From positions 199,001 through 263,000 of the forward strand of contig JBBHKE010000672.1 in assembly GCA_037447655.1 (NCBI GenBank): a stretch of 64,000 nucleotides of DNA, in the 5' to 3' direction. The notes beneath the pieces are model-generated. The model saw only the letters and a list, made by a program, of their open reading frames with translations, did no database searches and was not told the origin of the DNA. This document shows positions 1 through 53,559 of the stretch, piece after piece. Each line of letters begins with the position of its first letter. The first letter of the stretch is position 1. The translations under genes and the position numbers were made by a program. The stretch is from Zygnema cylindricum (taxonomy: Eukaryota; Streptophyta; Zygnematophyceae; Zygnematales; Zygnemataceae).

Positions 1-970
1 GAGGTCCACCAGTAGTAGTGGATGTAGACATAGACTTCAGCAAAAGCTATCAGAAATCCTATCAAACAACCAACTTTGATATAACACAAAAAGTGCTCAC
101 AGTTTCCAAATATTACCAAAATGCAGAATAATACATTATCACATGCAATCTAGCAATTCCCGAAATTGCAACACCATTGAATTAGTATACAATAAGATAC
201 AACACTTGGAAGTTTCCCAAAAACTGTCCCTTAGAGAGTTAGATCTTAATACTCGATAATTACAATTTTGGCTAAGTCCTAACTTTATACTCACAGAGAT
301 TATCTAATGAAAACTAATTAATCCGATGTCTACACCTAAAACAGCACTACTGTACTACACTTAGGACAAGGTACCGATTCATTACACTAATTGTAATGTG
401 AGTACGTTAAAACCCTATTTGACTACTAATAAAAATATACTTAGTGGAACACTACATTCTAATCCGCTAAGTTCAAACTATTGTGTTTCAGATATGCAAA
501 TAGATTCCCATACAGTAGTGATGAAGGTGCTTAGTCAGCAGTGGATGCTAGCGTCCAACCGGCTGTTGATCAAGTGCTTCAAGTTACCTGAGATCTTACA
601 AAGTGATGAGTCATTTGTGGTCCCACGCGAATCTCGTCCGTTCACTCGATTCACATCTATGGTCGTTGTTGAATGTTGTACGACTATCTTCGCGGGTAAT
701 CGATTGAGTCTCTATCCGTTCGATTCTTCAATAGTATTCGTTTGATGTGTGACGCGTGGTAAAGTATGTCGGCGCTTTCCCGAAAAACCCGTATGTTATT
801 TATTTTTTGACGCGTGTCCCTCAAGAATTACAATTCACTCAAAAGTATTACTGCTACTGTCACACTAAAGGAGGTAAGTATTTCAACTTATCGAGACCAA
901 AAAATATTCTAAGTACTTGGTCTCTCTTCACAGCTATATTTAGTGAGTATTAAGATTTCTTATTTCAACA
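1..970. mobile_element. Right end of an unclassified LTR-like insertion
   Basis: This AT-rich stretch shows no recognisable protein. It ends in TTTCAACA, like an LTR end, exactly where the gypsy RNase H coding sequence to its right stops. Short blocks resemble the LTR of element E at 34863-35857 (for example a CTAAGTCCT..TATACTCA block and an AGTTTCCCAAAAA block). I read it as the right-hand LTR of an element that entered the gypsy copy and continues off the window. The family assignment is an inference from weak similarity. An imperfect inverted repeat, GAGACCA..TGGTCTC, lies near 894-925. Confidence 0.45.
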
Positions 971-2030
971 TGCTGGTGATCAGGCATCTGGAGCACCAGA
1001 TGCTGCTTGAGGGAATCTTTCAAAAACTGGAAAGTGATTTGGTGATCTTTTGTCCACTGCCACTCGTGGTCCTTTTGCAATAATTGATTAAATGGCAAGG
1101 GGTGGCTGCTGAATTCGGGAATAAACCTCTAGTAATAGTTTGCAAGACCTAGGAAATTGCGGAGGGGAGAAATGTCTTGCGGGGGTGGAAGTGCGTTAAG
1201 AGCAGCCACCTTAACCATGTGGGGACCCACTATCCCTGGAGTCACCTCAAGACCCAGATAAATAATTTTCTGCACCCCAAATATTCCCTTCCCCGGATGG
1301 CACTTCAACCGCGTTGCTTGGAGAGCGCGAAGAACAATTTGTATATTCTCCAAGTGTTCTTTGAATGTCTTGGAGGAAATGATTACATCGTCGATGTAAC
1401 ACCATGCGCAATCAATTCCTCGAAGGGCCTCGTCCATAGACCGTTGGAATTTTGCAGGCGCATTTTTGAGACCAAATGGCATGTACAGCCACTCATACAA
1501 CCTAGACCCTGCCCAAAAAGCTGTCCTCTCTCGATGCTTTGGCTCCATTGAAATCTGGTGGAATCCATCCTTCATATCCAATGTAGAATAAATGGTGGCT
1601 CCAATAAGAGAATCGAACATCTCTTATGGGGTAGGCATTGGATAACGATCGGAGACAGCTGCCATGTTGAGCATCCGATAGTCTCCACACATCCAGAAAT
1701 CTACAATTTTCCTCGAAAGAGTCTTTCTTTGGCGGGAGCACTGCTAGAGAAGCAACCCATGTAGCCCGGTTCTCTCCTGCACAAGCCCTGCGCCCACCAA
1801 AGTCTATACCATTACGGTGATGAACTCCTTCTCCTTGAAGCTGAGAGGGTACTCTTTCTGCCAAACAGTTGACTTCTCATCGGTTAGATCTATCAGAAAT
1901 GGGGTCCTCTTATAGATTCCTATATCAGTGTCACACCAAGAGAACACCTGCCCGTTCTCCTCTAACAGCTTTGAGAGCCGAGCCTTCTGATGTGGATCTA
2001 GCTGTTCCCCTAAAGTCAAGTCCATGTTCC
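971..2030 (-). pseudogene. Ty3/gypsy reverse transcriptase and start of RNase H (copy G1)
   Basis: This is the RT that copies element RNA into cDNA. The minus strand reads from a pre-RT segment (LTLGEQLDPHQKARLSKLL near 2020), through NRATWVASLAVLPPKKD and LDMKDGFHQI, to YMPFGLKNAPAKFQ and the catalytic YIDD box at about 1390. The thumb/RNase H region (FLGLANYY, then a segment ending PDHQH) breaks off at 971, where the left-hand insertion begins. At least two frame changes occur around 1500-1860, so it is not translatable as one protein. RNase H core and integrase are missing from the window. The gypsy assignment is secure from the RT motif set; the clade is not determined. Confidence 0.88.
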
Positions 2031-2289: not shown

Positions 2290-3425
2290 TGTATGTTGTG
2301 CGTGACTTTGGAGATTGTAGGCAGGAGAATGCTAGAGAATGTTACAGCACCCAAGAAATTCCATTCAAATCCATACTTTTTGCCTAATCAAACTGCACTT
2401 TTTTGAGACTGAGACCCCTGGTACTGTTGTGGTTCCCTGTTGAAATCTCATTGCTTGTTGCCGTTCTTCAATTCGTGGTGTTGTCCACGTAGCAACTGTG
2501 CTGTCAAATATTATTCCTGGGGAACCTGTCCTGTATGCATGGCTGTTGGGGAATGATACCAGGGTTGGTAGGGTTTTTCCGTGGATTCTCGGGCTGGTTG
2601 CAACAGAAGAAGTGTGCTCGGTTGACTTTGGTCAGGGGGGTGGCTTTTCGCCCTGGTCAGAGAATCTAATGAACTATGATGCTAAGATCCGGAACCTGTG
2701 TTTTCAACAGCTGTTGGAGGATAAGAAGAGGAACCAAGTTGGTCCAATAAGCCTGAACTCTGTGGTCTCTTGATCCGATCTCAGGTGCGTCAAAAAATAT
2801 GGGAGTCCCCAGAACCTGAGTTACTCGATTCGAACTGCTAACCACCTGTTTTCTTTTATCATCTGTGTGGTGAACATTTTCCAGGACGTACCCCATTAGC
2901 GTGTCTTGCTGTTATCAGTCGCGTCATCTGAAAGAATGTTATGCTACGGACAATCTGGTGTCCCCTGCCTTATCCTGCTAACGAATACCCTTGGCATGGC
3001 CATCCAGCGACCACCAGATCTACTCGTCCCAACTTTTCCAAATGTGAATTTGTGATGTTGTCCAAATTTTGGGGAAGCTTGTGGTGAGAGTTAGACATGG
3101 CAGATACCAGTTGTTACTATGGGTAAAGTTGGTGAAGCTGCTGTAGTCTATACTGGCTGACTGCTCGGGCGTTTGGGTCAATCTTGACTGCTGAGTATGT
3201 TTCTACTCTGTATCCAGCTTTCAACACAGCATCCAGGTCGGAACAGATACCGAAAAATAATGATAGAATCATAAGTTCCGAAGGCGGGATCTCCAATGAC
3301 ACCACTTGTCGATTGAAGTCCTTCCCTTTTTGAGAAACTATCGGAAGTTCTGACCAAAGAATCTTTGTTGTTCCGTGCGGTATGGCGGCAAATCTTTTGT
3401 CCAATTTTTGCCGAAGTGTGGCCAT
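2290..3425 (-). pseudogene. C5-cytosine DNA methyltransferase domain inside gypsy element G1
   Basis: On the minus strand the conserved DNMT motifs appear in order. Motif I (SAM binding) reads LSLFFGICSDLDAVLKAGY at about 3210-3266, followed by a KIDPNARA block where the family usually has EIDP. The catalytic motif IV is DLVVAGWPCQGYS, with PCQ at 2991-2999. Motif VI is YVLENV, with ENV at 2873-2881. The SRDHRVQAYWTNL block (2729-2773) corresponds to motif VIII. A motif IX/X-like ending (ERQQAMRF..GTTTVPGVS..LIRQ) lies at about 2374-2473. The family transfers methyl groups to cytosine C5. Stops at 3117-3119 and just after it, another after motif IV, and frameshifts between motifs IV and VI and further on make this copy dead. 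It lies between protease and RT, and a second gypsy copy has the same layout, so it is part of the element and not a chance insertion. DNMT subfamily is not resolved. Confidence 0.85.
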
Positions 3426-3479: not shown

Positions 3480-4030
3480 CTATATGAAGTCATCAACATT
3501 TGTGGAGTCTCCGAACAGCTCTGAAGGTTTTGATGCAAAGTATACGAGATAGCATCTAGATACCAGAATAGTTGTTCTCCCCCGATTCCATAAATCAAAG
3601 GGGACCATCACTTTGGTGCCATTTAGGTCATTCGGGTCTGAAACTGTAATCTGTTCTTTCCACACGCTCAATTTCATGTTCAATCTGATCCAAGTAGCCA
3701 TTCCCAGCAAAATCTCAAACTGCTTAACTTCCACCACTAGGAAGGGGAATTGAATTAGTACGTATTGGCCCACGTCATCAGCAAATTCGATTTCCATTGC
3801 CTTGATGATGCCGTATACTGGTTGGTTCACTGTGCTTACCGTACTCAAGCAGATGTCACTTAGACTGATTTTTGGCCGAAGTTCCACGAGCATTTATTGT
3901 AATGCTGATGTGGTGATGAGATTTGGGAGAGCTTCGGTGTCTACCACGGCATCATCATACCCGCCGTATCCATTGAATTTAAAATTTCGTGTCTTGTTAA
4001 GAATAAGAGCCACCGATGGGGCCTTATAAT
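3480..4030 (-). pseudogene. Gypsy aspartic protease domain (G1)
   Basis: This retroviral-type aspartic protease would process the polyprotein. On the minus strand an active-site-like segment, AVVDTEALPNLITTS (near 3915-3955), is followed by a flap and body, and then by EILLGMATWIRLN, equivalent to the family's ILG-DWL strand. The usual D-S/T-G-A triad reads DTEA here, so Gly is replaced by Glu, which would be expected to impair catalysis. A stop separates the active-site segment from the 137-residue open frame at 3480-3893. It lies between gag and the DNMT domain. Confidence 0.75.
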
Positions 4031-4689
4031 CTCTATCCGCCATAGAAGTTTTTGGTTCTACCGCCATGAAGCTTATCTTAGGTGGTTCTGCAAACGCGAC
4101 CCTTTCCCTCTTGGTGTGAATCTCTTCCCCTAATGCCTGTATGAGTGTTTATTTGGGCAAATTGTGAGAGGAGGCTATCGTTTTAATGTGAGTCAAAGCG
4201 TAGGGCATCAAGTGTCGTACTAGCATTACTGTCGGCTTGGAAGAAGGAGGTAGAGCTCAGGGCGATGAAATGGGTGAATCGATGTCTTCTAATTTCTCTT
4301 CTTCCCCCCCCCTTTGCTTCCTCACTTTCTTCGTCAGAATTTCTTGTTGGAGGTGTCATTGGCGATTTTGTGGTTGGTCTTTTAGCCAGGTATCGGTCAA
4401 ACCATTCTTGATCTGTCTCAGTGGTTGAAAGATCTGGGGTTTCTTAAAATCTTTGAAACCAAGAGGAAGTTTCTTTGGAGTTGGAGGAGGTGGATGATTT
4501 GGCTTTAGGCCTAGCCCAATGTTACTGTTCAGGAGGACCGCTCTAGGTGAGAAGGATAAAGGACCGGTGGCTTTGCAGTCATGGTCCCTTCATTCCAGCG
4601 GCTGTTTGTCCTTTCTTTGAGAGGACGTTGTAGAGCGCACTTGCCTACGACAGTCCCCTACTCCAACGTTCCAGGCTTCGGATAGAAAT
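4031..4689 (-). other. Gypsy gag-protease linker (G1), no domain recognised
   Basis: This is minus-strand sequence with similarity to 19641-20390 of the second gypsy copy and with charged, low-complexity coding potential. It is frame-broken, and I recognise no catalytic motif. Confidence 0.5.
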
Positions 4690-7263: not shown

Positions 7264-8295
7264 TGTAACTGTGAGACCTCCATAGGACCTCAGAGTAGGC
7301 AGCTCACACGAAGCCTCTAGGATAACCCTGACCCCTTTGTGTTTCAGCAAGAGTAACTGCCACCCTGGCAGACCAAAACTTTTACCACTTTCACCCCTGT
7401 ATAGGCAAGACTCTCGTGAGTCTACAGCAAAAAGAATCTCTGAATTTGCTCCCCTGAGCAGTAAGTTATGAAGGGTCAAAGTTGACCTTTTGTACAGGAG
7501 CTCTCTGGGAGAGAGGGTCTAATCAATCAAATTTTTCTAAGTCCTATCTCGCTCTAAAACTCATTTAGTGAAGTACGGCACCAATTATAATAGTGTATCG
7601 TACATAAAGGTACATGTGCCGATGTACTTTATGTACGGATATTGTACTACATGGCCAAAAAGTCGACACATGTCATTTTTGGATTCGTTCTTAGAATCCC
7701 AAGAGATGTCGTAATCCAATGTGATTGTGCCACGTGGCAATTGACGTGACGTCAACCGCAAACCGCCGAAAACCTATTCCACGATCTCGGCATGCTTCGT
7801 GGCCGTCCGATTAAGCCGGATTACAATCGTGACCGTCATAAATACTTCCGCAGTATTTCTTTCGCTTTCTAAACAAAATGCGCAGTATTCGTTTCGAAAG
7901 TTCCGTGGCCGTACATTACAACTGTATCTATGTCTAAATATTCCGTTGAATGAAAATAGGCTACGTGTTAACATCTAAATAATTACAAAACCCTATATGT
8001 CCAACCATGATGCCAGACTAACTAGCTAAGGCTACCGGCTATGTTGACAGACGATAGGTACCAGGTTCAAATCCAGGGTCCGTCAATTTCAATTTTGGTA
8101 AATCTACCAAAATCTACAACCCGTAACTCTATCTCTAATCAGCATAGGCAGCCATGGCTCTAGCTCCCTCTTCAACCTTTAGTGACTACGACAAGTGTGG
8201 GAGCTGAAGAGAGAAGTTAGAGGCAGCCTGCCTCGACTTCTTTTCTGCATTTTGCAAAACCTAGAAAATACTAAAATAACCTTTTTATTTCTACA
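7264..8295 (-). mobile_element. Solo copia LTR inserted in gypsy copy G1
   Basis: A 1032-bp LTR of the C/D/H family runs from TGTAACTGTGAG to TTTCTACA. It is flanked by CCTCT (7259-7263) and CCTCC (8296-8300), a 4-of-5 target-site match. Gypsy sequence resumes on both sides. It retains the tRNA-like module (about 8020-8090), the stem-loop with loop AGTGACTACGACAAGT (8181-8196) and the small hairpins near its left end. No internal region remains, so it probably arose by LTR-LTR recombination. Confidence 0.85.
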
Positions 8296-9373: not shown

Positions 9374-10774
9374 GTAAGATCCCAATTCTGATCATCCCCT
9401 CATCCCCTCCGCCCATGACTGACCTGAAAAGAGGAGCTAAATCTAGTTATAAAAGTACATTACCCTAACCAGCTATCCTCTTTAACTAAAAGGGGACAGT
9501 AGCTTTTTCATTACTGCTCTAATTTGCCGGGAACCTACTAAATGCTACACCCCTGACCACCCTCCAAAGAATAGAAAGGAAGTGATAGTCGTCCAATCCG
9601 GCCCACAGGAACTCCGGACAGAAAACAAGGACGACCACAAAAGTACGCAATTAACTCCCACGCAAAAATATTGAAACAATAAAAATCGGCTCTTTCAGAT
9701 TAAGCAATATCACCTTGCCCTAGAGAATGGAAACAAAGATAAAATGTCAATGATAACGGTGAAGCGAGGGAACATACCCCGGAGTGCACCGATGACCAAA
9801 CTCAGAAGAAGGAAACTCTCCCAATGGCCCCGAAGACAAGTATAAGTCTCCCTCACCCTCGGTTCCGCTGTACGGATACGACAAGACTATTCTAAGTTTC
9901 AAACGGCGAAAGTCTAAACCTCCCAAAGAGAGAATAGTGCCAACCACCCACCCGAGCTACGGTCTCCACAAAAGACAATCCAAATCAAAGATGGCAATAG
10001 AGTCAATGACACAATGCAATAGTTCTCCAACAGAAAGGTTGATTTAAATCTCTAAGGGGTTTCTCAAGAGACAGTAGTGAAAAAACAACCTATATCCTTC
10101 GGCCCCAAGTGTCTTATACAACAAAAGTGTGTCCTATTGCATCTATCAAAGTTAAAGCAATGCTCAAAGCCAATCAGCGGCCAACAATTGGTATCGTATG
10201 GACACAAGACAAACCAGGGTGTTCTACACTCAGGGCAAAATGTTAGGCGACTGGCTCCGGCTGGATTGATAGCCAAAGGTCCTCCTATGGTAAAGTAGTA
10301 AGCAACAAAGTTTTGAATTGAAGTGAAACGTCTAACTTTGACCCGGTGTAATAAATGCTCTGCCCATCTGTTGGGCCTCAACTAACATCCTAGTGATTGC
10401 TAACAGCATGATCTACAGGAAAATCTTAAAGGCTGCGTGCCGTTCCACAATGTACCCCTCCGCTAGAGCTACATAGAACAGATGCTATGTAATGGTGCCG
10501 CCACCTTTACACCGTACCAACTCCGTAGTTCGACCTCCGTTTGAGGTGAACTAAAGTGCGTCGTGCTCCATAGTAAAAATACAAATTCTGATCTAACGGG
10601 TTGTTCCCCCCTTCTCCGTACGCTGGAGTTTGTACAAGGTGGAACGAGGCCTCGGAACTCTTGGGAGTGCAAATGTGCCGAAGATGCAGACAAGCTTGAC
10701 AAAGCGGCTGTAGCCATGAAATTATTTTTATCATCTGAAAGTAAGTTCGACTTCTGCTATTCTGAGGGTTTTTT
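9374..10774 (-). mobile_element. 5' LTR of gypsy copy G1 (boundaries approximate)
   Basis: This non-coding sequence aligns with 40600-41748 and with the solo copy at 29730-30874. Shared blocks include a GGCTCTTTCAGATT..AATATCACC block near 9690, an AAGGTTTGTTGG-type block, and CCTCCGTTTGAGGTG near 10540. It lies on the 5' side of the minus-strand gypsy coding region, which is why I call it the LTR. Both ends are uncertain. The last 60 bp resemble DNMT coding sequence (see findings). Confidence 0.55.
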
Positions 10775-17514: not shown

Positions 17515-17769
17515 TTATGGTTCAAGCTGAGTGGATACTGTCGTCTCGTTTATCAAATTGATATGAAAGGGGGTCCCTTTATAAGTGCCAACGTTATAAT
17601 CTGGGTAAGAAAACACTTGTTTGTTCTCCTCTAAGAGTTTGGATAGTTGGGCCTTCTGTTGGGGCTCTGGTTGCTCCCCTAAGGTCCAATCTAACTTCTC
17701 GGGTTCCACCATTGCCCATGTTTCTGAAGGCCTATCCCAAAGGGAGATGTCAAATTCCAACTCTACCTA
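17515..17769 (-). pseudogene. Gypsy pre-RT segment, copy G2
   Basis: The minus strand encodes LDWTLGEQPEPQQKAQLSKLL, then NKQVFSY and GTYKGTPFHINL. This matches the segment just before RT in copy G1. The RT itself is absent, because the element is truncated at 17515. Upstream residues EFDISLWDRPSETW are also shared with G1. Confidence 0.75.
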
Positions 17770-18960
17770 TTAGTTTACTTCTCCTCCTCTTCTAATGATG
17801 CTACTGCAAACAACCCCCACTGAGGAATCCCTTGATTTGAGTGAAATGTTGGGGATAAAAAATATTGTTGGTACAGTCTTTCTCCTTGCCTCTCTCCCCC
17901 CCTTAAGCTGCAAGTTGGCCTGTACTACTAACAACTTTGAGGCTTGATGGTAAATAGCCTTAGATTGTAGAGACTGTAGACTACAAAAGGCAAAAGAATG
18001 TTTTAACACCCATGTGACCGCATTCAGATCCATGCTCTGTCTGAGTTGGCTACACCTCTGGAGGTCTGAAATACCTATAGCGGCCGTTTTTGTAGGTCAA
18101 AATCCCATTGCGTGTTCTCGTTCCTCGACTCTCCGTTTTGTCTAGACTCCAACCTTGGTGTCGAATATTATTAAAGCCGCTACTTTTCGATATGCATGGT
18201 TGTTAGGAAAGGAAACAAAGGTTGGTAGGGCTTGCCTTGGCCCCCAAGTTTGTTACACCAGAAGAATTGGGGACGATCACCCTTGGTCTTTGGAGTGGCC
18301 ATTCGCCCTAGTCCGAGGATTTGGTAGAGAGTTGTCTTGGGATCTGTTTTGTGGGTCTGTAATAGTTGTTGGAGGACTCAAAAATGGATTAGATTCGTCT
18401 AGTAAGCCTATACTCGGTGAGTGATTGATCCTGGTTGTGCTGCATCAAAAACAAGTGGAGCCCCTAAAACCTTTATAACTTCGTTCTAGCTATAGGCGAC
18501 CTATTTTCTTTTATCATCTCTCGTGTGGACATTTTCCAAGATGTACCCCACCGGTGTGTCTTGTTATTGCTACAGCAGGAAAATTAATTTGATCATCAAG
18601 AAGAAAGTTCGACTTCCGTTATCTTAATGTCCTTTACCTTTCCATGCTACACAGTATCCGTGACATGACCATCCTGCTATTACCAGATCTACTCTTTCCA
18701 GCATGTCTAAATGGGGTTCCAGGATGTTGTGAACATTTTGGGGAAGACTTTAATGAGCTGTACAGATTGAGGATATGGGAATTTGTTGGGGATACAATTG
18801 GTGAAGTTGTTGTAGCTGCTGCTCACTGATAGCTCGGGTTACGAGTGAGATTTCCATGGCTACATAAGACTCCACCGTATATCTTGCCTTCAAAACATCA
18901 TCTAGGTCCGTGATGATTCCAAAGAAAAGTGATATTATTCAAAATTCCGGAATTAAGAAC
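17770..18960 (-). pseudogene. C5-cytosine DNA methyltransferase domain, gypsy copy G2
   Basis: This is a second copy of the methyltransferase domain in the same place, between protease and the pre-RT segment. Motif I reads ISLFFGIITDLDDVLKARY near 18870-18945, followed by VESYVAMEIS. Motif IV reads DLVIAGWSCHGYC with the Cys codon at 18663-18665, so the Cys is kept but the Pro and Gln of PCQ are lost. Then comes GSRTFFLMIKLI, motif VI YILENV (ENV at 18528-18536), a target-recognition segment (RPQFFWCNKLGG near 18245-18275), and the motif IX/X end with HAMGF and SMDLNAVTW near 18000-18110. Stops occur at several points. Divergence from G1 over the whole domain suggests the domain was carried through many rounds of element copying. 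Confidence 0.82.
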
Positions 18961-19089
18961 TGATAATGATACCATCTCTCGATCAAATTTCTAATCTTCA
19001 GGCAGAACCTCCGAAGGTTTCGACCGAGGCTTCGAGGTCTTATCCTTTATAAAAACAACTGAAAAAGACTGGTCCACTTCTCGCCAAAG

Positions 19090-19640
19090 TGTGGCTTTCT
19101 GTGATAATCTGCTCTGGTATCCTTCTTCTCACCGTTTAGAAATAGAGAATTGCTATATTACCTCAGCGATGTTATGGCGTTGGCTAGCAGTTCTGATGGA
19201 ATGTGGGTGGCATAAACAGGATAACATTCGAAAACGTAAACATTGGTCTTCCCTCGATTCCATAAATCCAAAGGTAACTCCACCTTAGTACCCTTCGGAT
19301 TGTTAAGGTCTTGAAGCGTTAACTGCTCCTTCCACACACGTAAACCAATATTCAACCTTGTCCAGGTGGCCATCCCCAGCAGAATTTCAATCAGCTTACC
19401 TTCCACCATGAAGAAGGAAAGTTGGATTTGGACTCGCTGACTCGCATCATCGGAGAACGTGATTAACATATCCTTGATGATCTTGTGAATCGGCTGGTTC
19501 CCACTGCTAACTCTGCTCTAGCATATGTTACTGGGGTAGATCTTTGGCTGGAGTTCCTTGGGCATCTGCTGCAAAGTCGAAGTATTTATTAGAGTTGGGA
19601 TTGCTCTCTTGTTGACCACAACATCCTAGTATCTTTCGTA
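19090..19640 (-). pseudogene. Gypsy aspartic protease domain, copy G2
   Basis: The body is open on the minus strand at 19158-19469 (EILLGMATWTRLNIGLRVWKEQ, GTKVELPLDLWNRGKTNV). The active-site position, near 19580-19625, reads VVVNKRAIPTLINTS, so the catalytic Asp is replaced by Asn. An LNKYERY segment precedes it. A stop codon lies just upstream. Inactive by sequence. Confidence 0.72.
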
Positions 19641-22600
19641 TTTGTTAAGTTTGAAATTTCCGGTGCAGTTGTGGATTAGCGCCACGGATAACGTCTTATA
19701 CTCCCTATCCAATATAGGGGTCTTAGGATCTGTTGACAAAAAGACTAAGCTGGGCTGGTCTGCCACGTCTCTTCTCTCCCTTCCCGAGTGAATTTCCTCT
19801 TCGAGTGCCTGAATGAGGATTTCTTCAGGCACGTTATGGGAAGAGGATAGTTATTTTACATGGGTGAGGGCGTAGGGCATGAGGTGCTTTACTAGCATAA
19901 TTGCTAGTTTGGAGGAAGGAGGTTGAGTTTTTGGAGACTATGTCGGGGAACATAGTTTTGTCGGTTTCTTCTGTTCCCCCCCCTAATTCCTTACTCTCAT
20001 TGTCTGATTCCGTTGCGCGAGGCATTTCTGCTCTGTTCTCTTTTGAGTGTTCCGCCATATTCCTTTTGAACCAATCTTGATTCCTCCGTTTTTCCTCATC
20101 TTCTCCTTGTTTTCGCTTCCCCCTTTATCTATTTGTTTTGTACTCTGCGAATCTGGGAGGCATTTTCTTCACGGTAATGGGAGGCGAATTGGTTGGTTTG
20201 ATCCCGTAACCGATGTTGTCGTTCAAAATCAGCGCCCGAGGAGTGAAGCACAGTGGTCCCGTTACCTTTTCTGTTATGGTGTCCTTGGGCCAATCTTTGC
20301 CTCTCCTTTCTCTGCTCCGTAGTGGAGTTTCAAAGTTGTCTACGATTGTCTCCCATGTCCACATTCTAGGCTCTTGACATAAAGGTACATACATGGTGAG
20401 CATTAGAAGGTTCCATATCCCACCCCAATACACCGTCATCGTCTCCACCCGCTGTGGCTTCTTGTTCAAGCTCCACTAGCTTTTGTAGTAACTCCTGTTT
20501 CCTTCCTTGGAGTTTGTGAGCGGCCGTCAAGGTAAGAGTTTGGGAGCCACATCCTAAACGAAGTGTTGGAAATTCTGCGGCCATCGCGGCCAGTTTTTGG
20601 CTTTGTTGGTGGATGATATTTTATGGGGTAAGTCTTGCTTGACTCGCTGGCGTTAGTTATGGTTGTCCATGGTGCGACGCCCCCAAAGGTAAAGGAGCTG
20701 AAGAGGGAGAGGATTCGCGCCGATTTCCCCTCCGCCGGTAAATAGAGCGTACTGCATCATCTCCTTCGAGACTCCATTCTTCCGAAAACATTGCCCCTCT
20801 TTGTGTCCCATGAAACCGCAAGCCTTATAATTAGAGCCCTTGGTAGGGTATTTGCTCCTTAACTCATTGGAGATTTGCGCATCATCAAATTTTGGGAGTT
20901 TGATTAGTCGCAACTAAGCTTAAGACATTTTGGTAGTGTTTGACAGAGGAGTTGTACGGTAATTTTCTTTGGCTACCGGTGTTTTATCTTCCAATCCTCC
21001 TTCTTTGCGTTCCATCTATTTCCTTGTCCTTTTAGCTCTGTTTTTTTTGCAATTCCTTCTACTTTAGGACAAGTTCAGGTTTGAGCTTCCGTGGGCAGCC
21101 TTTCCATCCATGGCCTGTTTGTTGACAGTTTAAGAAATTATAGAGGAAGACCCTCTCATATGCCCTTATTGCTGGCTTGACCTCATTTTTTGCCTCTTGC
21201 TTTCCCTTAAGCTTCCGCAAAGCATAGAGTTTGACCTGTTCCTCCTAGTGCAAAGAGCTCTCTCCAACAAACCCTGTGAAATTAGTGCGAGCTTTTCCTG
21301 TGAATTTCTTTTCCTGGGCTTCTCTGTGGACAAAATGATCATACAACTTTATTGCCACTAAAGAGATGTCTTTTGTCGAGGGATTGATGTCGTGTATGGC
21401 TTGGCCGGCAATCAAACTATCACGAGCAGTTTGCTCTCTTGAGCCAAACAAGTTGCGAACCTCTTTAAAATATTTGATTACCATTGCTGGCATATCAATA
21501 GTTGAGAGTTTGGTTTTTTGGCAAAGGCTACAGAGTCTCTTGAATAAAAATCTGTAGTGTTTCAATTTTCAAAAACCCAAATTCCTTAAATTCTTTGATT
21601 GCAGATTCATTCCTCTCTCTATAGACGAGCCTCCACACGTTCAAGAAAGTCGAACACGGAGTAGGGTTAGTAACCATTTGCGTGGCGGCTTGGGCTTCGT
21701 GAATTGCCTGAAGATGGTTCACGTAGGCCAGTCCTTGTGCCTGCAATTTCATTTCATTTGTGAAAATGGCTGTAATAAAGGCAGTTGCTGCTACCACCAG
21801 GTTGGACTTAGCTTCAATAACTGCGGCATCTAGAATTGGATCTGAAATCTTTAAATTTAGAGCCATCAGAAGGGGCCGCCTCTCTTTTCAATTTGCCAGT
21901 GCTCCTCCTGAAAGATAATTAACCATCATATGAAACAAAGTTGTTTCAAAGTCTGTTGGAATGACACCTCCCCAGTATTTGTTGATCTCAGACTAGGTGA
22001 AAGATTTCCACAACAGTTCAAAATCCGAAATTGTTATCCCCGAACTATCCTCGTAAAGACATAGACGTCTCCCATCTCTCTTTTTTCCTCTGCGAGATTG
22101 GTGAATTGTGGCGAGGCCGTTCTAGTGGGGTTGAAAAAATGAGCTTGCGAAATTGCATCTAAATCTACACCTTTTAGATCCAAACCGCTTTCTCCTCTGG
22201 TAAGAAGGTCGGGTGTAACAACATTGATCCCTTCCCCATTGAGGATGGTTTTGCAGTTAAAAGTGGTGTTGGATTTCTTGCTCTTCTATATCCACGAGAG
22301 ACTTGGAACTTAGAACCGTCTCCACCGATGGGATGTGGAGACGAGGTCTGTTCAAAGGTCTTTGGGAAATGGACGATGCTGGAGACGGAGACTGCTGGGC
22401 CCTATAAGATCATGCGTCACACTCCCAGATCGCTTCCTAGACGTCTCGGGAGGTAGAGTTCCTGAGGTGGAAGTAGGAGATTACCAGTGAGGAGGAGAAT
22501 AGGCAGGGATGGATTGGTCGTTTAAGACAGGCGGGTAGCGAGATCCACTAGTTGCGGACTCTAAGGAATGAAGTAGCGAAGGAGAAGAGGGAAAATCAAC

Positions 22601-22790
22601 GGATTGTCAGGCAAGAGAAAAAAGAGGAGTGGACCCCCTCAAGGGAATGTGAACCCTTTCGTGTGGTTGTTATTCCACCAAGGCTTCCACAACGAAAGCG
22701 TCATCCACTGAAACAACAGTTTGCACTTTTGAGGAGAAGTAGCAATGTCTAGAAGTATATCTGCACCCAAACCCTTTTCAGTAGGTTACG
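19641..22790 (-). pseudogene. Gypsy gag region, copy G2
   Basis: It follows the same order as copy G1. Second zinc knuckle YKACGFMGHKEGQC lies near 20780-20830 (first Cys replaced by Tyr). First knuckle FLNCQQTGHGWKGC lies near 21105-21150 (first Cys replaced by Phe). Capsid-like helices are at 21245-21866, with LYDHFVHREAQEKK and the Ala-rich NLVVAATAFITAIF. A Pro-rich N-terminal region occupies 22230-22790. Several frame breaks. The equivalence to G1 at 4031-7263 is clear from the ordered shared blocks. Confidence 0.75.
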
Positions 22791-23164
22791 TAGTTCCCCC
22801 CCCTTCGCGCGGAAGAGTGGTATCCCGACTCCTTTCTGAGTGAGGAATGCCTAGTTTGTTGCATGTGGTAGGGTTGGTTCCTTGAATTACTTCAACTAGA
22901 TGCGGCTCTGTCCCTAATGGAGTGGATCTCTCCCCACTGAGAAGTCTAGTGGACCTTCGTCAAGATTCCCGAATAAGGTTCAATTCTTGTTCCCATAAAG
23001 CCCGTCTTTCCTTTTCTAGAGCCTCCCAATCTATCGTAACTAGTCAAACCCCCGCTGCATCCTGACCCTGTGCTTTCACTATCTCCACCAACTCTTGATT
23101 TTTGCTAACCACCTTTGTCAAATCTACAATTATCATGCCTGAAACCTCTATATTTGTTTCCTTG
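22791..23164 (-). pseudogene. Gypsy leader region, left part (copy G2)
   Basis: This aligns with 8296-8480 of copy G1 (shared block CCTCCCAATCTATCGT versus CATCCCAATCTATCGT). It stops at the insertion site of element H. The sequence continues at 33946, where CCTTG repeats. Confidence 0.7.
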
Positions 23165-23396
23165 TGTAACTCTGAGACCTCCATAAGTCCTCAGAGTAGG
23201 CAGCTCACTCTAAGCCTCTAGAATAACCCTGACCCCTTTATGTTTCAGCAATAATGATTGCCACCATGGCAGAAAAAATCTCTATACACCTTCACCTTTG
23301 TGAAGTCAAGACTTCCTTGAGTATATAGCAAAATGAATCTTTGAATTTGCTCCCCTGAGCAATAAGTCAAGGTGGGTCAAACTTGACCTTTTTGAC
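23165..23396 (-). repeat. Partial H-type LTR
   Basis: About 230 bp matching the first part of the LTRs at 26042 and 32897, with the CTCTGAG/CTCAGAG hairpin and the small hairpin array. It ends abruptly after CTTGACCTTTTT, where gag sequence of element K begins. Confidence 0.8.
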
Positions 23397-24166
23397 CCCT
23401 ACGAAGCTCCAAAGTGCTTTCCCTCACAAGAATTATCCCCATGGCAATGCTCTAAGTCCATGAGGAGCCATCCATTTCTTACATATAGTTTATGATGTTT
23501 TCGTACTCATCTGGGAGTTTCATGATTAATGTGTTAATCTTTCTCTCCTCAGATTCTACACATCCCGCACTAGCAAGCTCAACATATAACGCAACAATAT
23601 CATTGCAAAATTCTATCCTGCTACCGCCTTTATAAACATAGGCCTTTATTTCCCGTTCTATCTACTGCTGCCTTTGTATAGTCTCACTCATATAAATCTG
23701 ACTTAGTGCTTCCTATTTCTTTGAAAACTAGGTTAAATTTATAAGATTGATAGCTATGGACTTAGATACGTTTCTAAGTATCATATGTTTTGCTATGGTG
23801 TTTTTATAATCCCTGATTTTAATGTCACTTTCTTTAGTTTTAGTTACAACCCATGAAAGTGGAACCATAGTCAAGAGCCTAGCTTCCCTCACCATCGGTG
23901 TTCCTTTTATCCTTCTCCTATTTTTCCCCTTCCACGGCAATGATTTTCCCTTCGCCTTCCATTGCATCTGAACTTTGGTTGGTAACTCGGTAGCCCAAGA
24001 TGATTCTCCATAGTGAGTTTCTCGAAATCCTAGTGGCGGACACCTCAGTCGTCCCGAAACAATTGCCCATAAGTGCTTCTCAAAAAGCAATCCCTCCATC
24101 ATAAATCCCCAATAAGTGAAGCCTATTCCATCAAACATAGGCACGCTAGATGGTGGGCCCATAACC
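23397..24166 (-). pseudogene. Element K gag fragment
   Basis: Copia gag on the minus strand. The start is the ATG at 24160-24162, inside the primer-binding site, giving MGPPSSVPMFDG, then a WGFMMEGLLFEKHLWAIVSGRL block. Later blocks include LIMKLPDEYENIINYM and a segment ending MGIILVRESTLELR. Stops and frameshifts are present. It is cut at 23397, and pol is missing. The divergence from element C is much larger than between C and D, so K is a separate subfamily. Confidence 0.82.
24152..24166 (-). other. Primer-binding site of element K
   Basis: The minus strand reads GGTTATGGGCCCACC, directly next to the LTR. It is complementary to the anticodon arm of initiator tRNA-Met. The ATG within it opens the gag frame. 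Confidence 0.8.
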
Positions 24167-25536
24167 TAAAACTTTGAGACTTCCATGGGTCCTCATAGTA
24201 GGCGACTCACAAGAAGCTTATCTAGATAGTGCCGACTCCAAATTGATATAAACCCAAATGATTGAACCCTTGAAAATCAGAACCCTATTAAAGCTTCACA
24301 CTTGTGAAATAAGACTTTCTATGTGCTCAGTTCCACCACAGAATGCAAAATTAGAATATGTGATTTGGACACATTAACCCACTTTGACTTTCCCTAAGAA
24401 CTGCATCCACCCTGGTAAGCAAAATTTATGACCGACTACACCTTTGTGTTGCCTAGACTCCCTTGTGTTGGCAGCAAAAAAATTATTGAAAATGGTCGAG
24501 TAAATTAATTATTATGAATGGTCAAAGATGACATTTTGTACAAAAGCTTTCTCGGAGAGAGGCTGCTACCTACTAAATTTTATAAGTCCTATTCCCTCTC
24601 TAAAACTCTATCTATTTATGTATGCCACAAATCAAATTACTGTAGAATCCCTTGTGTCCGCAGCAAAAAGAATCACTGAAAATGGTCCAGTAAATTAATT
24701 GTTATGGATGGTCAAAGATGACATTTTGTACAGAAGCTTTCTTAGAGAGAGGCTGCTACCTACTAAATTTTATAAGTCCTATTTCCTCTCTAAAACTCTA
24801 TCTATTGACGTACGCCACAAATCAAATTACTGTGTCGTACAGAAAAGTACAGGTGCTGGTATACTTTTTGTACGGCTATCGTACAATATGGCTATCGTAC
24901 AATATGGCTAAAATGTCGACACGTGTCAAATCACGATTTTTTCCCGTAATCTCCGGAGTTGTCGCAATCCAATGTCATCACGCCACGTGTTACCTGACGT
25001 GACGATGACCATAAAACCAAAAAGAAACTCTTCATGATCACTGCGCCTATCGTGATCGTCAGATTAAAGCTGGTTAGTCGTTGAAATTTGACTCGCTGTA
25101 TTTGTTTCGCTGTCGAAACAAATGCGCGATTTCCGTTTCATAAAATACATTCCAACCGTACTCCATACTATCTAAAACGGTATCCACGCACTACGTAATT
25201 ATTCTCGTTAAACGAATTAGTCTACGAGTAACTATATATATATTTATCAAACCTCCAATACCCTAACACTAGTCCTAGACCTAACGGACAAAGTTAACGA
25301 CCACTCTTACAAACGACAAGTACCAGAATGAACTCCTGGGTCCGTCAATATTTTTAGTAAACCTATCTGTTTTTTGCTACCTGTCTCTCTAGAAAGCTTT
25401 AGGCAGCTATGGCGCCATGGCTCTATCTCCCTACCCAGCCTTTAGTGACTAGAAGAAGTGTGGGGGCTTTAGAGGCAAACTGCCCTCTACCTTTTCCCTA
25501 TCATAATACAAACCTAGAAAATACTCAAATATCAAC
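24167..25536 (-). repeat. 5' LTR of element K (long, with internal duplication)
   Basis: It begins TAAAACTTTGAGAC and ends TATCAACA. At about 1370 bp it is some 320 bp longer than related LTRs. Part of the excess is a 189-bp tandem duplication at 24456-24833. It keeps a tRNA-like segment near 25275-25345 in degraded form. Confidence 0.8.
24456..24833. repeat. 189-bp tandem direct duplication in the K LTR
   Basis: Units 24456-24644 and 24645-24833 share long blocks, for example GAGAGAGGCTGCTACCTACT and CCACAAATCAAATTACTGT, in the same orientation. A separate 16-bp tandem pair (GGCTATCGTACAATAT twice) lies at 24874-24905. Confidence 0.85.
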
Positions 25537-26041
25537 ATTCCCCTTATTGGGTAGGATTAGCTCTTTAGCTTTTGAATATTTTTATTATAACTCCCTTTCT
25601 TTTATGAGAAGGTTTCCCTTGTATTGGTACAAGTTTATACAATTAATTCATGAAAGAGGAAAAAACAAAAAAACAGGATAAAAGAAATGTTATGGTTTTT
25701 GGGGGTTTTGAGTATTATCCTCCATGCCTACTTTACTTGCTCACAACAATGTCTTAGGGTACAAGTGCTTGTACATAACAATCACCATGAATTGCGCCAG
25801 TCGAGGATCCACATTTCACGTGAACATGTATCTAAAATAGAATGTGTGGAGGCTATCGCTATAAATTGTAAGTTGTCAATGATTGATAATACCATGATTA
25901 GATGCACAATAAATGACACACATTCTAATAATTTACAAAAGGAAGTGCAAGAAAAATCAAATTTTACTTTAATCATTTAAAGATAAAACATCGATATAAA
26001 CATAAAGTATAATAAAATGAGTTAAGAAAGCTTTATCTGAA
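25537..26041. other. 505-bp segment not explained by any element seen here
   Basis: AT-rich sequence between the K LTR and an H-type LTR. It matches no other part of the window by eye. It holds one small open frame on the plus strand (25687-25980). Confidence 0.5.
25687..25980 (+). CDS. Small hypothetical ORF with signal-peptide-like start
   Basis: 97 residues from ATG to stop. The first 17 residues are hydrophobic (MLWFLGVLSIILHAYFT) and look like a signal peptide or membrane anchor. The remainder is polar, with Cys at 18, 22, 53, 61 and 73. I do not recognise a family. No promoter or splice evidence can be judged. It could be a captured or flanking host exon, or a chance frame, since a short open frame in AT-rich DNA is not strong evidence. 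It is reported because it is the only part of the window that does not look like retrotransposon. Confidence 0.25.
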   Translation: MLWFLGVLSIILHAYFTCSQQCLRVQVLVHNNHHELRQSRIHISREHVSKIECVEAIAINCKLSMIDNTMIRCTINDTHSNNLQKEVQEKSNFTLII

Positions 26042-27089
26042 TGTAACTCTGAGATCTCCATAGGTCCTCAGAGTAGGTAGCTCACACTAAGCCTCTAGTA
26101 TAACCCTGACCCCTTTATGTTTCAGCAAGAATAACAACCACCCTGGTCGACAAAAACGCTGACCACCTTCACCCCTATGAAGGCAAGACTCCCTTGAGTC
26201 TATAGTTAAAAGAATCTCTGAATTTGCTCCCTTGAACAGTAAGTTATACAATGTCAAACTTGACCTTTTTCTATAGAAGCTCTTTGGGAAAGAGGGTTCT
26301 ATCTACTAAATTTCTAAATCCTTTATCTCTCTAAAACTCTATCTATTGACGTACAACAATAATCGTATTATTGCGTTGTACAGAAGGGTTCAGCTGCCGA
26401 TGTACTTTATGTAAGGACATTGTACGACATGGCAACAAACCGACACATGTCATATCCAGATTGGTTCACGTAATCAGCGAAGATGCCGCGATCCAATGTC
26501 ATTGCTCCACGTGTCATCCTATGTGGCGATGTTTGCAAACCAGTGAAATTTTTTTCCGCGATCTCGATATCATTTCTGGCAGTGCAATTAAAACCAGATT
26601 TCGATTGTAGCCGTCATAAATACTTGCGTGATATTTGTTTCGCTATCAAAACAAATTGCGAGGTATTTTTTTCTCTGCCGTAACGTACTCCGTACTTTAC
26701 ATAACTGAACATATGCATTCCGTATATAGTTTGTGGTTAAATGAATTAGTCTACATTTAATTGTTTATATAATTATCAAACCCTATATCTGTTAACACTA
26801 GTTCTAGACTAAACGGATAAAGCTACCGACTATCGAAGACTTTGAAAGATGGTATGTACCACGATCAAGTCCTGGGTCCGTCAGGCCCATTTTTTGTAAA
26901 TCAACCCATCTAGTGCTTGTCTTCCATTGGATAGCATAGGTAGCCATGGCTCTAACTCCCTCTCCGACATTTAGTGACTGCGACAAGTTTAGGAGTTTAA
27001 GAGAGGAGTAAGAGACAGAATGCCTCGGCTTCTTTTCTGAAATTTATTTTAGACCTAGAAAATACTAAAAAGAACCATTAATATCTACA
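26042..27089 (-). repeat. 3' LTR of element H
   Basis: 1048 bp from TGTAACTCTGAGATC to TATCTACA, same subfamily as 32897-33945 (shared blocks GACATGGCAACAAACCGACA and GTGCTTGTCTTCCATTGGAT). A purine-rich tract follows on the right (minus strand AATAAGGGGAG). The left flank CTGAA does not match the right flank CCTTG. Confidence 0.85.
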
Positions 27090-29409
27090 CTCCCCTTATT
27101 TCCAAGTCACCTTTTAATTTCAAACCACACTTCTCCTTGCATAAAATTAGCTTAGGGGAAGGCACAAGTTTGGTCATCGTATCAACTACCATTTCACTAT
27201 CTAGTTTATATTCTAAATTGATTATTCTGTCTTTTACCTTTTCCCTAACGAAGCTAAGTCTAATGTCCATATGTTTTGCTTTAGAATGGTGTTTAAGATT
27301 GGCAGAATAGTAATAGCTGCCTGATTGTCACAAAATACTATCTGAACACCACTTTTAAGATGACCAAGTTCACCAAGAAAGGACTTGACCCACATTAATT
27401 CTTTATAGCAGAGCCACAGGCCATGTACTCAGTCTCCATGGTGGAGTGGGAAATGACCTTTTGCTGCTTGCTGCTCCAGTAGCAAGCCCCATCACCCACA
27501 TACAATACATGCCCAAACGTGCATCTTCTCATAAGAGCATCCCCATAGTTGGCATCACTCCAAGTGGTGATCTCAGTATTGTTCCCACCAAAATGCAACC
27601 ATAGATCTCTAGTCCCTATGAGATATCTAAGGACTCTTTTAGCTACCTCTCATTCTTTCTTAGTGGGAGCATTTAGACCCCTACTTAGTACTTCTATAGT
27701 TGCGGCTATGTCAAGATGGGTACAATTCGTGAAATATATTAGGCTACCAACTACTTGTCTATAAGGAATGGTCTGCATAAATCTTTTCTCTTCCGGGCAT
27801 ATCTCATTATCCAAGATTATAACTCCCTCTTCCACACTCCTTTCACTTCCCTTTTTTAGTTCTGTAGGAGTGGTACAGCTTTTAGCCCTGTCCATTTGGA
27901 ATTTTTCTAACATGTTTCCAATGGCCTCTTTTTGAGTTAATCTTATTATCTTCCTATTTGTGTCTCTCTCTACCTAAATTTTTAAAATATACCTTGCTTC
28001 TCCCATAACTTTAATCTCAAATCTTCCTTTTAGATCATTCTTCAACTTATTATTTTTATCCATAAATTTACTTAAAACAAGCAAATCATCAACATAGATC
28101 GCAATAAAAATAATTCCTTCGTCATATTCAAACGAATAAATTGAGTGATCTGAGCTGATTTGAATATATCCCAAACTTGTAAAGAACTCATCGAGCTTCT
28201 TGTTCCATTGACCGGGCTCCTGTTTGAGCACATACAAGGATTTGATCAATCGGCATACCTTGCTCTCCTCCCCTTGCTCCACTAATCTTTCGTGCTGTCG
28301 CATAAAAATCTCCTCTTCCAACTCTCCATGTAGGAAGGCCGTCTTCCTATCCATCTGATGCACTTCCATGTCTTTTACTAACGCTATACTGAGAAGTATC
28401 CAAACAGAGCGAAACTTGACGATCGGAGCAAAAGTCTCTTTGTAGTGAATTCCTTCATTTTGCGTAAATCCCTTTGCCACTAACTGAGCCTTATAACGCT
28501 CAATGGTGTTATCCGGGTTCAGTTTCAGTTTAAATACCCACTTATTCCCAATTGACTTCCTATCAAAGAGACAGTCCACCAAGTCCCATGTATTGGCTGC
28601 CATTATCGAAGCCATTTCCTCATTAATGGTTGTCTTCTACCGGTTCCCCTCAAGACATTTCATCGCCACACCATAAGTATGGGGCTCATCGGGATGAGAC
28701 AGTTTGGTTAACTTATTCTTAACTTGTTTCTCTTACACTCTTTGGCTGCTTCTCCTTCCACCCTCAAACTCTGATGCCAGAATGGATGGCTCTCGTCGAT
28801 TCTTTCGAATAGTTTCGGCTTCTCCTCTATCCCTTGATAACTGGTATATTTCCACCACGTCTTCCTCTTCGCTTGGAGTAGGGACTAGGGGTTCCACGGC
28901 TGAATTCTTCTTGATTTCATTTGTACCTGCAAGATAATCATCTTCTCGAAAACGTGGATAGTTAGGAAGCTCATATTCATCAAAAATTTTCGACTCAAAT
29001 CTGATTTTGACTGTCTTTGAATGCTTAAAAGGATCTATAGATTTCCCTTCATCCATGACCACAAGATGCTTTACTGGGATTATATCTTCTCTCCTAAGAT
29101 CATATACTCTATATCCTTTTACATATTCATCATATCCTAGCAGATATATTGGTTTTCCTTTCGGATCCAACTTCTAATTTGACGGATTAGCGTCTAGGCT
29201 GAATACTTGACTACCAAAAACCTTTAAATGTGAAACATCTGGATTTCTGTCGGTCCATCTTTTAGGAGTTTGGCCTTTTACTGCAGAAGTGAGAACTCTT
29301 TTCTTGAGATAATTTGTATTGTTCATTGTTTCGGCCCAAAATCTCTTTCCTATCTTTTTATCTGAGAGCATACTCCTAACAGTATCACTTAGTGTTCTAT
29401 TTAACTTCT
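27090..29409 (-). pseudogene. Element H pol, integrase C-terminus to RNase H
   Basis: On the minus strand, the integrase end (KKIGKRFWAETMNNTNYLKK, 29174-29371) is followed by GKPIYLLGYDEYVKGYRVYDL (28733-29170). The RT at 27974-28615 has KWVFKLKLNPDNTIERYKAQ and the catalytic IYVDDLL box. The RNase H end is at 27395-27913 and 27085-27270 (MQTIPYRQVVGSLIYF, SDANYGDALMRRCT, METEYMACGS). Frameshifts break it into at least five pieces. RT residues look intact in the longest piece. Confidence 0.88.
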
Positions 29410-34862: not shown

Positions 34863-35857
34863 TGTTGTCTATTGCCTATTTCAGCCATGGATTACTCACG
34901 GAAACACCCACAGACTACCTCAAAAACAGCTGTGTTTAAGAAAGCACAGATTACTCCACAATAAACAAAATCAATTCAAACTAAAACAATGTGCATTATA
35001 CCATATACACTGTAATCTCCCAAAGTTATTGCCAAATCCACCATGGAATCTAGAAGATATAAGCTCCAGAGTTTCCCAAAAATAGCTGACAGCTTCACAA
35101 ACTAACCACTTAGACTGTTCACAGAATCTTACATAGATACTGGAATACAATGAAACTTCACACACATATAGATTCTATATCATAAAAAAATTTCACAAAG
35201 TTTCACATGAAAGCACAAAACAAAGTGATCACACCAACAGGTCAAAGATGCAGAAAACAGTCTGCCATTACTTTGATTAACTTGACTGCGATACATAAAA
35301 TAGTCTAAGTCCTGCAAGTTATACTCAGACTACTTAATATACGGAGGAATACCATCCGTACTTTATCTACTCTAATAAACTAATTATCCAAAAGGACAAA
35401 CCTATGTTGTACAGACTATTTACACCGCAATCTTCATATGTCACAAAAAACAAAGCTACCGCTAAGCAACTACTAAACTACCACTACCGTACAATCATCA
35501 TTACTCGAAATCTATCCTAGTCATATTATCCGCAGCTGCGCTAGCTGCGCTGGCTGCGCTTGTCCGTACAGATCATATAAATAGCCGCAACTGCGTTGAC
35601 TTAACTGCATCGCAGCTCCACCGTACCGGCGGCGCTTATTTCAACATTCCGTTTATTTTACATCGGATCGCTTTGCGATCCGCCGTCCATTTGTCACAGC
35701 TTGTTCACACCACTCAATGAGTCTTTTATGTTACTTTAATTATATTAATCCGTTCGCTCCCCCAATCCGTGAATCTATTCAAACCTCCATATTAAATCAA
35801 ATTAGCAGTTACGCGCAAACTGTCTCGTACATATGAAACCGACTTTTCAAAACAACA
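34863..35857 (-). repeat. 3' LTR of element E
   Basis: It runs from TGTTGTCTATTGCC to CAAAACAACA. It contains a perfect 8-bp palindromic stem (CGGATCGC/GCGATCCG, 35664-35682) and a GCTGCGCT repeat cluster near 35532-35560. A purine tract (minus CCGGGGGAG) abuts it. Confidence 0.85.
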
Positions 35858-35898
35858 CTCCCCCGGAAATTTAGTTTCGTGCCCCCAAAGAAAATTAT

Positions 35899-36020
35899 GC
35901 AGCGTGTAATGTTATATTGCTACGCTGCGCTAGTTTGACATCGCAGCGCAGTATGAATACAAAGAGCAGCGTGTACTGGTATGCTGCTACGCTGTACTAA
36001 TTCGACATCGCAGTGTGAGC
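35899..36020. repeat. 67-bp tandem repeat with internal hairpins next to the E 3' LTR
   Basis: Two units begin GCAGCGTGTA at 35899 and 35966. Each contains GCTACGCTG..GACATCGCAG, whose arms can pair. The second unit diverges at its end. Confidence 0.7.
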
Positions 36021-49208: not shown

Positions 49209-49221
49209 CTCCCCTTATTTT
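49209..49221 (-). other. Polypurine tract of element C
   Basis: The minus strand reads AAAATAAGGGGAG directly upstream of the 3' LTR, the expected site of plus-strand DNA priming. Confidence 0.75.
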
Positions 49222-52200: not shown

Positions 52201-52644
52201 TGATGTAGAGATAAGGTTTTTGTTCAGCTCCGGAATAAACAATACATCGGAGAATGTTAATATGGATGTCTTTCCTTCTACTAACACTTTAAGATCTACC
52301 GATCCTACAAGAGTAGTGGTGACTATCCTCCCATCCCCGTACTCTATCTCTACGGTGGGAATCTTTCTTATCTTAGTGAACAGGTGTCTATCCTTACACA
52401 TGTGCATTGAGGCACCTGAATCTATAATCCAGCCTGCTTCACCTTTCAATCCACCGTAAGCACATTTCTGCCTTCGTGGAATTTCAACCTCAGTTTTCGC
52501 CTCCAACTCCTCATCCAAAAGGAGCTCATCGTCCTCGTCCTCGGATTCCGCCTCAAGTACCTGTGTGACAAGGGCCTTTTCTTTCCTCTCGGGGTACCAC
52601 CGGTCTGCCCCTCCTTTAACCGAAGCTCGGTTAGCTTGGTGCAC
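49222..52644 (-). CDS. Element C pol polyprotein: protease, integrase, RT, RNase H (one nonsense codon)
   Basis: The Ty1/copia pol would cleave itself, integrate cDNA, and reverse transcribe the element RNA in virus-like particles. Counting from the Met at 52644, the protease active site DSGAS is at residues 75-79. The integrase zinc motif has His207, His212, Cys241 and Cys244. The integrase catalytic triad is Asp272 (TDIWGP), Asp335 (SDNGGEY) and Glu365 (PEQNG). The RT active site YVDD is at 810-813, and RNase H begins with SDASYGD at 989-995. A TGA at 49642-49644 follows residue 1000, where all related copies have TGC (Cys), so a single G to T change on the plus strand made it. In-frame coding resumes to 49222 with STMEAEYMAS and DNQAAIA, supplying the remaining RNase H residues. 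The true N-terminus is probably fused to gag. Confidence 0.95.
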
Positions 52645-53555: not shown

Positions 53556-53559
53556 AACC
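53545..53559 (-). other. Primer-binding site of element C
   Basis: The minus strand reads GGTTATGGGCCCACC, abutting the LTR with no spacer. It contains the gag ATG. Confidence 0.85.

Follow-up and report, generated by a model that had tools for sequence, protein, structure and literature searches.

A DNMT3-like methyltransferase within Ty3/Gypsy-type retrotransposons of Zygnema cylindricum

A frame-broken C5 cytosine methyltransferase lies on the minus strand, between the protease and the reverse transcriptase (RT) of a Ty3/Gypsy-type element, at positions 2290-3425 of the window, a stretch of 64,000 nucleotides from Zygnema cylindricum (C501:199001-263000 of a 352.8-Mb assembly in 2689 contigs, which was also the genome searched). 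By profile and by predicted fold the domain (DNMT below) resembles DNMT3, and it recurs in unbroken copies of two element families, A and B, elsewhere in the genome.

The DNMT motifs occur in C5 methyltransferase order and are spread across three frames with stops. With positions counted by hand from the translated frames, and hence approximate, LSLFFGICSDLDAVLKAGY is located in the stop-free piece 3425-3120 (minus strand, as are all pieces here), GWPCQGYS in piece 3113-2973 (PCQ at about 3002-2994), YVLENV (about 2890-2873) and SRDHRVQAYWTNL (about 2773-2735) in piece 2911-2669, and GTTTVPGVS (about 2436-2410) in piece 2631-2368. The domain, with motifs I, IV, VI, VIII, IX, and X, covers 2339-3272 (minus strand; approximate bounds mapped from pol residues 70-385). 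An earlier note, made from the letters of this stretch, had described the canonical motif order between protease and RT, which is present; GWPCQGYS is likewise there, a few bases away from the positions 2991-2999 assigned to it. The profile search that it proposed gave a significant Pfam DNA_methylase match to piece 2973-3113 alone (E = 4.4e-5; 23.5 bits against a cut-off of 22); the other three DNMT pieces, each searched singly, gave no DNA_methylase match.

When the DNMT region of locus L012, an unbroken relative in the same genome, is compared with the window by tblastn, it matches at E = 7e-139, with 76.6% identity over 171 aa in one frame (3419-2907) and 54.3% over 293 aa in a second (2911-2084). 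The RT of the same element follows just downstream of the window DNMT (1851-973; 82% to L012 by tblastn). The proposal of a DNMT captured inside a Gypsy Pol is right. Chance motifs are ruled out: in 200 dinucleotide shuffles of the region no score exceeded 25.4 bits, and the best HSP reaches 263. This copy (copy 1) is dead, since its codons, mapped to the unbroken relative, include eight stops in the DNMT and four in the RT.

Copy 1 belongs to family A and runs on the minus strand from its 5′ end at 10701 to 972, where it is truncated in the RNaseH region; blastn aligns it with a copy on contig C1374 in three blocks (20612-23015 with 10701-8296, 23012-23553 with 7262-6728, and 23897-29375 with 6445-972). 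No match to the integrase or PHD finger of L012 was found in window positions 1-971 or in the 4.5 kb past the window edge. The 5′ repeat A1 (9526-10701, minus strand; first letters TTGTCAAGC) is 80.5% identical to repeat A2 at C1374:35682-36858. The protease region (3483-4148, minus strand) consists of open pieces 3897-4148 and 3483-3893; in the unbroken relative, L012:3477-4313 has weak similarity to Asp_protease_2 (E = 2e-4; 22.3 bits, just below the cut-off of 24.3); the window pieces themselves gave no Pfam match. An in-frame TAG (3480-3482, minus strand; context ATA TAG CAATTCCCTATT), conserved in other loci, stands at the boundary of protease and DNMT. The RT and the start of RNaseH occupy 973-2025 (minus strand; pol aa 503-853, 81.5% identity), and Pfam RVT_1 recognizes piece 1132-1623 (E = 8.8e-24).

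A Copia-type solo LTR (7264-8276, minus strand; 75.8% to the Copia LTR) is nested in copy 1, filling the gap 8296-7262, and the 4-base overlap of element homology around it (C1374:23012-23015) is likely a target duplication. A second family A remnant (17527-22154, minus strand) has its own DNMT at 18938-17878. Two stretches of this remnant, of 232 and 255 aa, are respectively 62% and 52% identical to the L012 pol; it is more decayed, with 11 stops in the mapped DNMT codons. The window also contains a near-intact Copia element (48160-54586, minus strand) with ORFs at 49642-52644 (1000 aa) and 52446-53579 and LTRs (48160-49186 and 53560-54586) that are 98.05% identical; more Copia LTRs of that kind are scattered along the window. 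An Rfam scan of the window found nothing. For Zygnema cf. cylindricum SAG 698-1a, a genome of 360 Mb with 73.3% repeats and 29.8% Copia has been reported, in a paper whose main text does not mention DNMT or DNA methylation (PMC9915684). Among markers of host affinity, an HSP110 exon is 96% identical to a database protein, 81% to Mesotaenium endlicherianum, and 77% to Physcomitrium; rbcL gave no match, and phytochrome gave five, with one frame of 282 aa.

The genome contains at least 123 matches to the PF00145 profile (123 of 782 candidates scored), and the L012 DNMT as query gave 127 matches and at least 126 scored copies (126 of 1853 candidates scored), counts that may be up to twofold too high because contig pairs suggest that two haplotypes were assembled apart. 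Such pairs with the same hits are L037 and L038 (C2290 and C723), C839/C2519, and C2179/C2675. Eleven PF00145 matches are free of stops and lie in an open frame of 900 aa or more, and some DNMT copies lie in open frames of 1520-2395 aa; these young, unbroken copies are the intact frames that the earlier note had suggested looking for. A 5743-aa frame at C961 was set aside because the neighboring sequence is partly N (371 of 1300 bases). The L012 RT gave at least 105 matches (104 of 4421 candidates scored). For 54 of the 105 listed, a DNMT hit is listed no more than 3 kb upstream, and for one further hit the conserved TAG site lies there, the pairing being drawn from 127 L012-DNMT places, 16 hand-picked PF00145 places, and one TAG site. 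Four of the other 50 were sampled, and all four carry the domain. Among the hits covered in this way no family copy lacking the domain was found, an outcome that the earlier note would have counted against its reading.

The Pol of these elements, as predicted from sequence, has the order protease, DNMT, RT, RNaseH, integrase, and PHD finger. By Pfam, the natural ORF of L012 in family A (L012:4317-8876; 1520 aa) encodes DNMT, RT, RNaseH, H2C2, rve, and PHD domains, and that of L009 in family B (L009:2035-9219; 2395 aa) a zinc knuckle (weak, below the Pfam cut-off), DNMT, RT, RNaseH, integrase, and PHD. Both loci have the Ty3/Gypsy-type succession of protease, RT, RNaseH, and integrase (H2C2 plus rve), the protease being weak. 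In family B the PHD finger is clear, scoring 38.1 bits, with matches to the fingers of PHF12, BAZ2B, KDM5, and KAT6; that of family A is below the Pfam cut-off (17.5 bits against 24). Neither locus contains a chromodomain at E 0.01, the feature that marks the integrase C-terminus of chromoviruses.

Instead of plain LTRs at both ends, split repeats in the order A-coding-B-A-B were traced in one copy of each family, with element ends TGTC...GACA. In the family B copy on C1344, A1 (85514-86444) is followed by the coding region, B1 (94737-94978), A2 (94981-95911), and B2 (95912-96154); the A repeats are 100% and the B repeats 99.6% identical, and TTGG flanks the copy on both sides. The family A copy on C1374 has A1 at 20612-21797 and B1 ending at 31632; another 3.7 kb of other origin intervenes before a B-A2-B2 block (35345-37084), so that B is interrupted. 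The sequence that separates the first B from the B-A-B block (C1374:31633-35344; loci L012 and L030) is unrelated, and about 335 bases of the element 3′ end are present on both sides of it. At L013 and L027, A-coding-B gives way to unrelated flank, and no repeated flanking motif is visible at either locus. A 1.06-kb repeat beside family A (C1374:18663-19718) was considered as an LTR of the element and rejected, as it is a Copia LTR.

In family A and in its cousin L023, the protease ORF stops at TAG, after which QFPI and the DNMT continue in the same frame; at L027 the zinc-knuckle region and the protease share a single open frame that extends up to the TAG. Besides the window, the same codon in a near-identical context is found in 11 locus rows representing eight distinct places. 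A pattern with the TAG codon left free matches 451 places at one mismatch or fewer, against 10 for the reversed pattern, and at 100 listed zero-mismatch sites the same-frame stop between upstream ORF and pol is TAG in 91, TAA in five, and other codons in four. The preceding ATA/ATC/ATT codon and the base after CCC vary among these 100 sites, at positions where the search pattern permitted variation. The family B ORF at L009 has no stop at that place. At L012, L013, L022, L024, L027, and L002, codon 19 downstream of the TAG is an in-frame ATG; L048 and L023 lack an ATG at that codon. RNA folding after the TAG gave a covariation term of only -0.87 from nine sequences and is not convincing.

Fixation of the in-frame UAG suggests readthrough, and the ATG downstream means that internal initiation would also serve. 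The readthrough context of tobacco mosaic virus is UAG followed by CAA UUA; family A likewise has UAG and then CAA, but the next codon is UUC rather than UUA. Murine leukemia virus is alike in that a same-frame UAG parts the upstream ORF from pol (PMC4178896), but the stop in Zygnema comes after the protease, in the context CAATTCCC, and readthrough there is putative.

The assignment to DNMT3 is based on profile and fold comparison with solved structures, in which the domain is nearer to DNMT3 than to DNMT2, DRM, or bacterial enzymes (profile E = 1.4e-23 for DNMT3 against 9.4e-6 for the best DNMT2 chain). C5 methyltransferase motifs I-X follow one another in linear order, and L012 and L009 retain the catalytic Cys and ENV. 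Identity to DNMT3A and DNMT3B is 25-28%; the Pfam matches of L012 and L009 include no ADD or PWWP domain, and motif IV is PCQ or ECQ in the elements in place of the PCN of DNMT3A. In family B, Glu replaces Pro and Cys is kept in all 14 locus rows looked at (13 places: L004, L005/L016, L009-L011, L014, L015, L017, L018, L020, L025, L026, and L028). The same Glu occurs in 11 of 26 aligned database relatives, and P and E are scattered over the relatives. One relative that is otherwise well kept (P0006) reads PYQ, with Tyr replacing the catalytic Cys.

A database search with the L012 DNMT returned 28 proteins (7988 candidates scored); Marchantia polymorpha (two), Closterium (two), and Klebsormidium nitens (one) are named as hosts, and a PHD finger is listed for 15 of the 28. 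The L023 DNMT gave two matches. Two architectures are present. The DNMT precedes the RT in the present genome, in Closterium (P0013), and in Klebsormidium, and it lies between RNaseH and integrase in 13 relatives in which this order is wholly or partly visible. The latter are Gypsy-type polyproteins (P0007, P0009, P0011, P0012, P0014-P0019, P0021, P0023, and P0024), of which P0021 additionally lists a chromodomain (PF00385). In two Marchantia polymorpha proteins marked partial (P0008 and P0010), the frames with the DNMT end soon after it, so the RT may be reached by another recoding event or be missing. A single branch parts the two architectures both in the tree of DNMTs (96/98; 28 rows) and in that of RTs (98/98; 17 rows), which are unrooted and composed of elements and database relatives without host DNMT3; the DNMT tree includes 28 of 34 available domains, leaving out P0025-P0028, P0030, and the partial L023. 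This separation fits joint inheritance of DNMT and RT with one putative relocation.

Judged from substitution rates, the DNMT is under purifying selection within families A and B, meaning that the domain matters to the element; it may serve to hide from or manipulate silencing, as the earlier note proposed. Median NG86 omega, from pairs that are not independent and that share more than 150 codons (saturated or zero dS gives no omega), is 0.27 for DNMT (26 pairs) and 0.17 for RT (28 pairs) in family A, and 0.24 (13 pairs) and 0.28 (11 pairs) in family B. Between L048 and L012, dN is 0.178 for the DNMT and 0.032 for the RT with synonymous change near saturation; the DNMT thus evolves five to six times faster than the RT in this pair, yet is constrained. 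Among 40 paired places typed by hand, with the query's own place excluded, RT identities of 93-97% go with DNMT identities of either 89-96% (11 places) or 72-76% (seven places). Swapping of the DNMT module between near-identical elements was rejected as an explanation: L048 and L012 have an RT identity of 95.4% and a DNMT identity of 73.6%, with synonymous change near saturation in both, and faster amino-acid change in the DNMT suffices.

The three family A copies measured have an observed/expected CpG ratio of 0.66-0.67, and the three of family B one of 0.89-0.92, compared with 0.62 in the window and 0.56 in one Copia element. Because CpG is not below the surroundings in the six copies measured, they give no sign of heritable CG self-methylation, and this lack of depletion speaks against it. 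Of the 265 CG sites of L012, 115 are kept in the window copy and 78 are CA or TG there (33 the other way), a loss expected for the decay of a methylated dead copy.

The joint explanation that we consider slightly more probable than not is that copy 1 descends from a retrotransposon with a Ty3/Gypsy-type Pol that captured a DNMT3-type methyltransferase and keeps it under purifying selection. Readthrough of the UAG would yield a minority Gag-Pro-DNMT-RT-RNaseH-IN-PHD protein, with which the DNMT would be packaged into particles together with RT and integrase; the enzyme may then methylate the cDNA of its own element, either ahead of integration or in the course of it, and the PHD finger may tether the integrase to nucleosomes. 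Readthrough might be dispensed with if the downstream ORF started at the ATG 19 codons on, from a subgenomic RNA or by reinitiation, with the dose of DNMT-Pol set otherwise. That is possible, though we would not expect it: the ATG is there in the loci named above, and a Candida element with UGA between gag and pol has been studied for the same question (PMC2194720), but L048 and L023 have no ATG at that codon, and neither the TAG nor the bases that follow it vary, in contrast to nearby synonymous bases at positions permitted by the pattern.

A role in trans, in which leaked enzyme methylates the host genome or rival Copia elements instead of the element's cDNA, is unlikely, although the genome has so many DNMT copies, several of them unbroken, and accidental effects on the host methylome have been raised (PMC5890265). 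The single Copia element measured does have a lower CpG ratio than the DNMT-Gypsy copies measured, but the coupling of DNMT to RT and integrase in one polyprotein favors action within the particle, and the methylome of K. nitens is described as not highly divergent (PMC5890265). The variable motif IV (Glu in family B and 11 of the relatives, Tyr for Cys in P0006) and the absent CpG depletion would suit a domain that works on RNA or simply binds nucleic acid (the primer tRNA, for example, the genomic RNA, or an RNA-DNA hybrid) and is not a DNA cytosine methylase; we regard this as decidedly improbable given the retained Cys and ENV, a profile nearest to DNMT3 and far from DNMT2, and the CG methylation reported for relatives of the element DNMT (PMC5890265). 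Hardly credible is a passive passenger, a neutral leftover of one capture: copy 1 and the second window remnant are both dead, but it is opposed by the DNMT omega of 0.24-0.27 within families, by the DNMT dN of 0.18 at near-saturated synonymous change in one between-subfamily pair, and by the same domain in liverwort, desmid, and Klebsormidium proteins.

Beyond this in-particle explanation, we propose only tentatively that a streptophyte-wide retroelement lineage acts as a writer and reader unit, in which a readthrough-dosed DNMT3 would pre-mark the cDNA, the PHD finger would pick nucleosomes by H3 state, and the DNMT would have been relocated once within Pol (before RT or between RNaseH and integrase). 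New copies would then land already methylated in chosen chromatin. Since transposons are normally silenced by methylation, an element that retains a methyltransferase of its own presents a testable paradox.

Elements of this kind are already known. The precedent named in the earlier note, DNMTs captured by retrotransposons in dinoflagellates and a charophyte, is real: KnitGypsy-Dnmt3 of Klebsormidium nitens was described by de Mendoza et al. (2018; PMC5890265). Another paper states that some DNMT3s are embedded in retrotransposons, as earlier reported for streptophytes and dinoflagellates (PMC12344493). KnitGypsy-Dnmt3 (P0022 is KFL_009030040) and the Zygnema elements share a DNMT3-type domain in a Gypsy Pol before the RT, intronless and repeated, purifying selection, and the DIRS-like repeat order given in the Figure 4 legend of that paper. 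SymbioDIRS-Dnmt3 and SymbioLINE-Dnmt of Symbiodinium are likewise retroelements with their own DNMT (PMC5890265), and SymbioDIRS-Dnmt3 has A-coding-B-A-B repeats too, with two DIRS types that vary in Pol domain order; the Symbiodinium elements are of tyrosine recombinase or LINE type, however, whereas those of Zygnema have a Gypsy-type integrase (H2C2, rve).

In listings of open-licence papers, nothing was found on PHD fingers or readthrough in DNMT-bearing retroelements, nor, except for PMC5890265, on Zygnematophyceae with DNMT and Gypsy among the 10 listed of 107; the main text of PMC5890265 mentions neither PHD nor readthrough. The Zygnema elements differ from KnitGypsy-Dnmt3 in host, in the fixed UAG before the DNMT (family A), and in having an ECQ family; a PHD finger after the integrase may be a further difference, P0022 being partial. 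Four features go beyond that paper, as far as its main text extends: the fixed in-frame UAG, the predicted PHD finger downstream of the integrase, relatives whose DNMT stands between RNaseH and integrase, and the Glu that takes the place of Pro in PCQ. What the Zygnema genome contributes to the known systems is a host rich in copies, young and unbroken ones among them, with likely translational dose control and a PHD finger linked to the enzyme. Together these allow concrete experiments that ask if a retroelement marks its DNA ahead of integration.
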